A stretch of DNA of 64,000 nucleotides from Hyphomicrobium sp. (GTDB lineage: Bacteria; Pseudomonadota; Alphaproteobacteria; Rhizobiales; Hyphomicrobiaceae), in the NCBI RefSeq assembly GCF_019744875.1, contig NZ_JAIETU010000005.1, forward strand, positions 310,001-374,000, written 5' to 3'. Both the position numbers and the translations under genes were made by a program. Positions 12,621 to 13,650 of the stretch are shown in pieces; the stretch's first letter is position 1, and every line of letters starts with the position of its first letter. The notes beneath the pieces were generated by a model that worked only from the letters and a program-made list of their open reading frames with translations, ran no database searches and was not told the DNA's origin.

Positions 12621-12730
12621 GCCAGCCGATTGATATGGCGCGCCTTTCCTGAGCGCTCATCCGTCCGGTCGATAAGCATATCTATAAGTTGCAATAATTT
12701 TCCCTGATGCACGGATCACGAACTTGCGAT

Positions 12731-12759
12731 TTGCCGTTATTGGGGTGCTTGCCTATATA
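12731..12759 (+). promoter_or_regulatory. candidate promoter of pqqA copy 1
   Basis: TTGCCG (12731-12736) and TATATA (12754-12759) are separated by 17 bases, a plausible sigma-70 type promoter about 60 bases upstream of the first pqqA start. The region is visibly AT-richer than its surroundings. Prediction by eye only. Confidence 0.35.
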
Positions 12760-12819
12760 CCTACCAGCGACAGACGGGCTGGCGGCCCGCTGAGCACCAA
12801 AACTTAGGAGGAATATATC

Positions 12820-12909
12820 ATGAAGACCTGGATGAAGCCCTCGGTTCGCGAGCAGGAAGTCGGCCTCGAGGTTACCTCGTATCTGCCGGCTGAGATCGAC
12901 ATCATCTAA
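12820..12909 (+). CDS. pqqA: PQQ precursor peptide PqqA, copy 1
   Basis: A 29-residue peptide, MKTWMKPSVREQEVGLEV followed by TSYLPAEIDII. It has the PqqA hallmark, a Glu and a Tyr separated by three residues (E17 and Y21 in EVTSY), whose side chains are joined by PqqE and become the PQQ skeleton. The EVTSYxxAEID stretch closely resembles the Methylobacterium precursor. AGGAGG stands eight bases before the ATG, and a perfect stem-loop terminator follows 26 bases after the stop. It is thus a monocistronic precursor gene: no pqqB, C, D or E is in the window, so maturation must come from elsewhere in the genome. A near-identical copy lies 0.5 kb downstream. Confidence 0.9.
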   Translation: MKTWMKPSVREQEVGLEVTSYLPAEIDII

Positions 12910-12934
12910 CGTCGATCGGCTTTCAGTCGAATTC

Positions 12935-12970
12935 AACGGCGGCCGCTAAAGCGGCCGCCGTTTTCTTTTG
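12935..12970 (+). terminator. Rho-independent terminator of pqqA copy 1
   Basis: A perfect 12-base-pair stem (AACGGCGGCCGC / GCGGCCGCCGTT) with a TAAA loop at 12935-12962, followed by TTCTTTT. Very strong and directly after the first pqqA stop codon, which indicates that the short message ends here. Confidence 0.9.
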
Positions 12971-13324
12971 TGGCGCCTTCAAACGCTTCTCCGCCGCGGT
13001 TTTCGCCGAACCTTTCCGCCGCGCAATCGTTTCGACTTCAGACCTTTCGAATTCGATGGTCCTTAGGCGACGCATGCGCTTTCAGCGCATTTACCGGCGG
13101 CGCCATGCACCGGATCGCATCATTGCTCGATGCGCGACTTGTGCCCGGTTTTGCTGGCCCAGGCGTTCCACGTCGCCTTCTCCGTCGCCTTCTCCCCGAT
13201 TTCCGCTCCCGCGAAACGTCGCCGGCTCGCTCCGCCTTTCTCTTTTCGCGTGAGCGCGCGCCTCTCGTGCAAAACGCTACATAGTAGCATCAGACGCACT
13301 GATGGATTTGAATTGAAAATACGA

Positions 13325-13354
13325 TTGGCAACTCCGGCCGCGACTCCCTATTTA
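13325..13354 (+). promoter_or_regulatory. candidate promoter of pqqA copy 2
   Basis: TTGGCA (13325-13330) and TATTTA (13349-13354) with an 18-base spacer, about 58 bases upstream of the second pqqA start. This suggests that the second copy is transcribed on its own, since a strong terminator closes the first. Prediction by eye. Confidence 0.35.
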
Positions 13355-13412
13355 TCATGGTGCGCGACGTTGTTTTCGAAGCGCGTTTTTCAAATCCAAG
13401 GAGGAACTACTC

Positions 13413-13502
13413 ATGAAGACCTGGATGAAGCCTGCCGTTCGCGAACAGGAAGTCGGCCTCGAGGTTACCTCGTACCTGCCGGCTGAGATCGACATCATCT
13501 AA
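13413..13502 (+). CDS. pqqA: PQQ precursor peptide PqqA, copy 2
   Basis: A 29-residue peptide differing from copy 1 at one residue only (Ala for Ser at position 8). The reactive Glu17 and Tyr21 are unchanged. At DNA level the two frames differ at five positions, and 9 bases after the stop codon are also shared, so this is a recent duplication or one kept alike by gene conversion. AAGGAGG stands eight bases before the ATG. It has its own strong terminator. Upstream sequences of the two copies are not alike, so expression may differ. It probably adds precursor for PQQ-dependent methanol or other alcohol dehydrogenases. Confidence 0.9.
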   Translation: MKTWMKPAVREQEVGLEVTSYLPAEIDII

Positions 13503-13523
13503 CGTCGATCGTTTTCGGTCTTT

Positions 13524-13561
13524 AGCGCGGCGGCCGCCACGTGCGGCCGTCGCGCTTTTTT
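13524..13561 (+). terminator. Rho-independent terminator of pqqA copy 2
   Basis: A 14-base-pair stem (13524-13537 with 13543-13556, one G-U pair, five-base loop) followed by TTTTT, 21 bases after the second pqqA stop codon. It resembles the terminator of copy 1 in its GCGGCCG core. Confidence 0.9.
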
Positions 13562-13650
13562 ATGCGGGGCCGGTCGCGTCAAGCCGCTGGCCATGCGCGC
13601 AGAAAGCGCAAATGATGACGGGCCCTTCCGTTCACGAGAGGCCCCAGAGA

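Follow-up and report, generated by a model that had tools for sequence, protein, structure and literature searches.

The window, by which we mean the entire 64,000-nucleotide stretch of DNA analysed here, carries two short pqqA genes in tandem (Table 1). The encoded PqqA peptides are each 29 residues long and differ solely at residue 8 (Ser/Ala), and both retain Glu17 and Tyr21, the E-x3-Y motif that becomes PQQ. The genes are separated by 503 bases. Their open reading frames, together with scores of 30.8 and 30.4 bits against PF08042 (curated cut-off 21.1) and of 27.2 and 27.9 bits against TIGR02107 (curated cut-off 20), confirm the pair as an earlier note on this DNA had described it. The AGGAGG and strong terminator that the note had assigned to each copy were likewise found, the former at the same distance before both ATGs and the latter as terminator-like stems of 12 and 14 pairs. 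Judged from these elements, the two copies are apparently transcribed as separate units. On the 3' side of the pair lie a terminator-like stem and a gene for a GNAT acetyltransferase, not pqqB, and hence the locus is not a pqqABCDE operon.

Table 1. Features of the tandem pqqA locus, in window coordinates, and the other pqqA copies of the genome
Feature	Position	Strand	Basis or remark
First orphan pqqA (MKTWMKPSVREQEVGLEVTSYLPAEIDII)	12820-12909	+	PF08042 and TIGR02107 above cut-off
Second orphan pqqA (MKTWMKPAVREQEVGLEVTSYLPAEIDII)	13413-13502	+	PF08042 and TIGR02107 above cut-off
AGGAGG ribosome binding site, first copy	12806-12811	+	sequence; 8 nt 5' of ATG
AGGAGG ribosome binding site, second copy	13399-13404	+	sequence; 8 nt 5' of ATG
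First-copy terminator-like stem and T-rich tail	12935-12970 (stem 12935-12962, 12 pairs)	+	stem scan; aligns in relatives
Second-copy terminator-like stem and T-rich tail	13524-13563 (stem 13524-13556, 14 pairs)	+	stem scan; aligns in relatives
Small hairpin around stop codon (GATCGAY ... RTCGATC)	12894-12917 and 13487-13510		
Type I promoter module, first copy	12669-12759	+	conserved in 7/7; profile matches before pqqA in other genera
Type I elements	GATAAG 12671-12676; CTGAT 12704-12708; 18 nt; CGATTTG 12727-12733		
Type I candidate -35 and -10	TTGCCG 12731-12736; 17 nt; TATATA 12754-12759	+	assigned by eye
First-copy 5' leader stem-loop (contains GGGCTGGCGGCCCGCTG)	12771-12792	+	17-mer invariant in 7/7
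Type II promoter module, second copy	13276-13330	+	conserved in 7/7; R1 match E 1.5e-13 (training sequence)
Type II elements	GCTAC-ATA-GTAGC 13276-13288; ATCAG-N5-CTGAT 13289-13303; 18 nt; CGATTGG 13322-13328		
Type II candidate -35 TTGGCA	13325-13330	+	
Second-copy candidate -10 TATTTA	13349-13354	+	18 nt after -35; by eye from alignment, weak
pqqA, operon copy (locus L010)	contig C1		directly before pqqB, C, D, E
pqqA, MaoC-side copy	contig C1		between cupin gene and MaoC/patatin genes
pqqA, IMP-dehydrogenase-side copy	contig C3		between IMP dehydrogenase and FtsJ genes

Genomic context and age of the pqqA pair

The genome (4.52 Mb in 23 contigs, estimated to be 100% complete, the window being part of contig C2) yielded five pqqA copies, not two, when searched with the PqqA peptide. 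A complete set of PqqB, C, D and E, all above their NCBIfam cut-offs, is encoded on contig C1, and only one PqqE above cut-off was found in this genome. The earlier statement that the pair stands without pqqBCDE is thus true of the window locus but not of the genome, which possesses a complete pqqABCDE operon. Since the genome has the operon and the window genes lie elsewhere, they are orphan pqqA genes by definition. The PqqBCDE proteins needed for PqqA processing are encoded in the same genome, and a role in PQQ synthesis therefore survives the check for a genome devoid of them. The orphan peptides are almost identical to the PqqA of the operon.

Across 60 genomes (our own included), pqqA was present in 29, with at least two copies in 20 of the 36 family genomes and in none of the 24 from outside the family. 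Eight Hyphomicrobium genomes carry between five and eight copies each. The loci were compared in seven of them, the very fragmented G003 being left out, and all five positions described above are common to 7/7, with intact open reading frames. The tandem pair is kept in place in every one of the seven, with 501-648 bases between the genes, and the two genes of each pair match at 78-85 of 90 bases. This synteny rules out chance as the source of the window pair. It also led us to reject a recent duplication; judged by its shared position, the pair is old.

Candidate promoters of the orphan pqqA genes

Each pqqA of the pair is preceded by a block of sequence conserved in 7/7 genus genomes, and the first-copy and second-copy blocks differ. 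The block before the second copy, here termed type II, recurs at the MaoC-side copy and, in degenerate form, at the IMP-dehydrogenase-side copy. Type I, before the first copy, carries conserved extras of its own in the form of GATAAG/GATAA elements, a leader hairpin and the -10-like TATATA. In the leader stem-loop 11 pairs are predicted, one of them changed on both sides, and its 17-mer has no other exact copy in the genome. A scan for consensus sigma-70 promoters returned one weak site (12669-12698, 9/12 positions; chance alone would give 0.4), and the second copy had no site. The case for promoters therefore rests on conservation: the suggestion that each copy has its own candidate promoter finds no support in the consensus scan but is upheld by the conserved block before each gene. 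The differing upstream regions that had been reported are real, and because the blocks differ and are both conserved, different control of each copy is likely.

A search for STKAT and YRAWTNG, separated by 16-20 nt, within the 200 nt before each ATG revealed a core shared by both promoter types. The core STKAT-N17/18-YRAWTNG occurs in 27/28 orphan promoters of the genus (spacing of 18 in 22 and of 17 in five) and in 24/30 promoters of other genera (spacing of 18 in 24/24), counts that are not independent, since the pattern was derived from the genus set and the profiles had served to pick those from other genera. It lies 96-119 nt before the ATG, its second half overlaps the candidate -35, and no operon promoter contains it (0/7 genus genomes). 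In the rest of the window, the background is one match per 629 stretches of 200 nt. By its arrangement the core looks like an activator site.

Because this core, whose spacing barely varies, is common to types I and II, a single activator may serve both, and it could be argued that the copies differ in number only, the promoter differences being incidental. Such pure gene dosage would not account for the GATAAG/GATAA elements, leader hairpin and TATATA of type I being conserved in their own right, nor for both types being found in several genera, and we regard it as rather unlikely. We instead favor separate control, whereby one common putative activator would read the core and types I and II would answer to different additional signals; an activator probably controls the orphan copies separately.

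The operon promoter (L010, upstream of 7147) possesses a conserved block of its own, consisting of CACACGAAsTCGTGACG, GCTTGACAAGC and ATCCGCAGA, and gave no type I or type II match.

Specificity and distribution of the promoter modules

Three profiles were built: R1 for type II (21 sequences) and R2 for type I (seven genus sequences), both from module ranges set by hand, and R3 for type I (17 sequences from six genera). Across the eight genus genomes, R1 gave 24 strong matches (E<=1.8e-7), three per genome and each just upstream of pqqA, of which 21 are training sequences and the other three lie in G003, outside the R1 training set. One further match, weak (E 0.096), was not at pqqA. Among 103 family genomes, R1 returned 58 matches at E<=0.01 in 39 genomes. 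Thirty of these loci were opened: at 29 a pqqA follows on the same strand, its ATG lying 64-84 nt downstream, and the remaining locus is cut off by the end of its contig. Among loci from genomes outside the model, pqqA was confirmed at 22/23. The other 28 comprise 16 genus matches already known to lie at pqqA, one locus with pqqA (L261), ten unopened loci and a match in G022 (contig C73, E 0.008) that coincides with none of the pqqA genes listed there.

Within 397 genomes of the order, all R1 matches below E 1e-3 fall in Hyphomicrobiaceae, and the promoter design therefore seems confined to this family; the five matches beyond it (E 0.0014-0.0044) lack a pqqA in their vicinity. With R2, seven matches outside the genus below E 1e-3 among 40 relatives all lie just upstream of pqqA, and nine weaker ones (E 0.013-0.49) do not lie at pqqA. 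With R3, 297 order genomes gave 12 matches at E<=1e-6, every one with pqqA downstream and six of them in genomes outside the model; a weaker match (E 0.0011) also has pqqA, and no pqqA accompanies any of 11 weak matches outside the family (E 6.5e-5 to 0.0094). These figures describe sequences close to the profiles, and more divergent sites before other genes would escape them.

Many pqqA genes of other genera carry neither module. Of 20 pqqA loci in five other family genomes, six carry R2 matches (two being tandem arrays with three matches each) and three carry R1 matches, all upstream of pqqA, and 11 have neither. Around the best pqqA of other relatives (18 loci), R1 found nothing and R3 found one match (L035, upstream of pqqA), leaving 17/18 without a match. 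Neither R1 nor R3 matched at seven genus operon promoters, ten accessory-copy loci or three dehydrogenase loci. Where module-bearing loci were checked for pqqB-E, in fetched flanks of about 1.4 kb or less, pqqB was present at the G020 array only. A short pattern searched in our own genome matched exactly only at the second copy and with one mismatch at the MaoC-side copy; at two mismatches, the short patterns gave about as many matches as a reversed control pattern.

Silent sites and RNA structure

The first copy shows almost no synonymous change. Its codons differ silently in 28/534 comparisons among seven species (0.052), and none of 1591 overlapping 28-codon control windows from pqqB, pqqC, pqqE and the IMP dehydrogenase and FtsJ genes was as low (minimum 0.146). 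The MaoC-side copy (0.120) and the IMP-dehydrogenase-side copy (0.134) also fall below all 1591 windows, and the second copy (0.189, 18/1591 windows) and operon copy (0.210, 30/1591) rank within the lowest 1-2%. A further control, presumed to be highly expressed, came from related PQQ dehydrogenases of three genomes (about 89% identical); it gave 0.317, against 0.026 in these genomes for the first copy and 0.289 for the second. As the second copy is close to this control and the first far below it, the strong constraint belongs to the first copy and not to the pair.

Gene conversion, codon optimality and folding of the coding sequence, the last described below, each fall short as a cause of the frozen sites. 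Gene conversion alone does not suffice, since the first and MaoC-side copies differ more within genomes (14/178) than first copies do between species (28/534). Codon optimality fails similarly: 17/26 codons are the commonest, yet all seven genomes retain the rare GTT9 and GCT24.

The conservation strongly disfavors the notion that duplication left the extra copies behind as neutral remnants, drifting to loss without a role of their own. Nearly identical peptides would indeed be mutually replaceable, and copies beyond the five do differ between species; nevertheless, remnants would hardly keep the same positions in 7/7 genomes with intact reading frames, conserved promoters and conserved 3' stems, nor would a remnant have silent sites more conserved than every control window. 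We consider this origin extremely improbable.

Compared with dinucleotide shuffles, whole transcripts of the pair have more stable predicted folds (z -4.0 and -3.1). A small hairpin surrounds the stop codon in 6/7 first and 6/7 second copies, the latter showing a compensatory exchange between C-G and U-A. Selected RNA structure within the coding sequence was rejected: whether or not the stop codon and 14 nt were included with the coding part, native sequences folded no better than synonymous recodings (0/35 sequences at P<0.05). The low z-scores are thus probably carried by the leader and terminator hairpins. No Rfam family reached its gathering score.

It is conceivable that the orphan copies serve a task unrelated to PQQ, either through their peptides or through their short, structured mRNAs. 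RNA regulation is one example and the handling of lanthanides another; the latter is suggested in the available part of PMC11317620, according to which the orphan copies of M. extorquens respond to lanthanide form. Such a task would suit the leader hairpin and near-invariant silent sites of the first copy, as well as the stop-codon hairpin with its base-pair swap. Opposed to it are the near identity of the peptides to the operon PqqA with Glu17 and Tyr21 kept, the failure of coding sequences to fold better than their recodings and the Rfam result. Overall, a non-PQQ task appears very unlikely, and we retain PQQ precursor supply as the probable function of the pair.

pqqA number, PQQ dehydrogenases and precursor supply

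Our genome has eight matches to PQQ-alcohol-dehydrogenases over the cut-off and one below. Over 60 genomes, the number of pqqA copies rises with that of the dehydrogenases (Spearman 0.86); the correlation is 0.71 in the 25 family genomes with pqqA and weak outside the genus (0.45, n=17, p=0.07). Two genomes have pqqA without a dehydrogenase match, and three show the reverse. A strict ratio of one pqqA per dehydrogenase is ruled out by G020 and G029, which possess seven and five pqqA copies respectively and a single PQQ-alcohol-dehydrogenase match each.

Each PqqA molecule is consumed to give one PQQ, and PqqB, C, D and E are catalysts that turn over. This asymmetry can explain why precursor supply is multiplied on its own and probably under its own control: a cell with several PQQ-dependent alcohol dehydrogenases to fill would gain from multiplying, and separately switching, the precursor gene only. 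Provided that the orphan peptides are made and converted to PQQ, the window pair would belong to a group of four orphan pqqA genes providing additional precursor in trans to a single PqqBCDE set, a reading that the sequence comparisons lead us to hold with considerable confidence. The precursor-dosage system suggested in the earlier note stands as the best explanation, with five pqqA genes, a single pqqBCDE set and a pqqA number that rises with dehydrogenase number; dosage does not account for the scarcity of silent changes in the first copy.

It is tempting to go further and propose a Hyphomicrobiaceae programme devoted to the PQQ substrate peptide alone. One putative activator would bind at STKAT-N17/18-YRAWTNG, practically only before orphan pqqA genes, the two promoter types would add separate signals and so uncouple supply from PqqBCDE, and the first copy would be under an additional, nucleic-acid-level constraint on its coding sequence. 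We would give this wider proposal about an even chance, a slightly lowered estimate because many pqqA genes of other genera are without modules and one weak R1 match lies away from any listed pqqA.

Relation to known systems

Taken together, the window pair is real and looks functional, and its kind, the orphan pqqA, is already known from methylotrophs, among them Hyphomicrobium denitrificans. According to the available part of PMC9851590, H. denitrificans FJNU-6, of the same genus name, also has five pqqA genes, one in pqqABCDE and three separate, two of the five being much more expressed. Its pqqA3-5 are likened here to the window pair by description and not by position, and, as far as that part of the report goes, it differs in that one copy lies in a second pqqADE operon, whereas our genome has only one PqqE above cut-off.

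Extra pqqA copies are also described in the accessible portions of reports on M. extorquens (PMC6520949, PMC6414531, PMC11317620), which by our inference mean the same two genes of strain AM1. Methylorubrum extorquens AM1 resembles our genome in having two extra pqqA genes outside the operon with consecutive locus numbers (META1p4628/4629), and differs in that the promoter design is seemingly restricted to Hyphomicrobiaceae among 397 order genomes, a set perhaps without AM1 or a close relative. From what is available of PMC6414531, PMC5784242 and PMC11317620, orphan pqqA genes behave differently from pqqBCDE in Methylobacterium/Methylorubrum: those of AM1 change more strongly than pqqBCDE in one comparison (PMC6414531), and pqqA1A2 and pqqBCDE of M. 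aquaticum respond differently (PMC5784242). Three pqqA copies are mentioned for Beijerinckiaceae RH AL1 in the part of PMC10848612 at hand.

Multiplication of pqqA only, usually beside a single set of the other genes, is a likeness to the Methylophilaceae, for which 3-12 copies are given in the available text of PMC4109929, and to Methylovorus sp. MP688, although these belong to another class of bacteria. The dosage idea for extra pqqA genes was published for the latter strain (Ge et al. 2015, as cited in the available part of PMC11317620). No description of a conserved orphan-pqqA promoter was found in the literature covered, namely open-licence PMC articles with few subscription journals. 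Three points may be new: a promoter design that spans the family yet is almost confined to orphan copies, how old the tandem pair is, and the near absence of silent change in the first gene.

With a promoter element found almost only before orphan pqqA genes across the family, the reason why the copies are kept becomes testable, and it becomes tractable to ask which signal (methanol, lanthanide, oxygen or nitrate) calls for precursor without more enzyme. The promoter also offers a means of influencing PQQ output in Hyphomicrobium, already used for making PQQ according to the available part of PMC9851590.

Further pqqA kinds in relatives

The seven genus genomes contain 45 PqqA profile matches, 41 of which were found by the pattern E-V-T-x-Y; the other four are of a divergent kind. 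This divergent pqqA occurs in 4/7 genomes (L043, L055, L061, L066), where a neighboring stretch of about 1 kb matches the operon loci, and the kind with its operon-like neighbor was not found in our own genome. The divergent loci are probably the pqqAED cluster that is linked to denitrification in the available part of PMC12423496.

Two more accessory kinds, distinguished by their peptides, are present in three of the seven genomes each (L046, L053, L058 and L049, L071, L076). The accessory peptides begin MKIWTAPEVREQNV... and M..WNAPQVREQAV..., and their loci in the relatives gave no type I or type II profile match.

Tandem arrays of three and four pqqA genes are found in two other genera. 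In one locus of another genus of the family (L183, G020:C109:24800-28300), four tandem pqqA genes, three of them with type I matches, are followed directly by pqqB.
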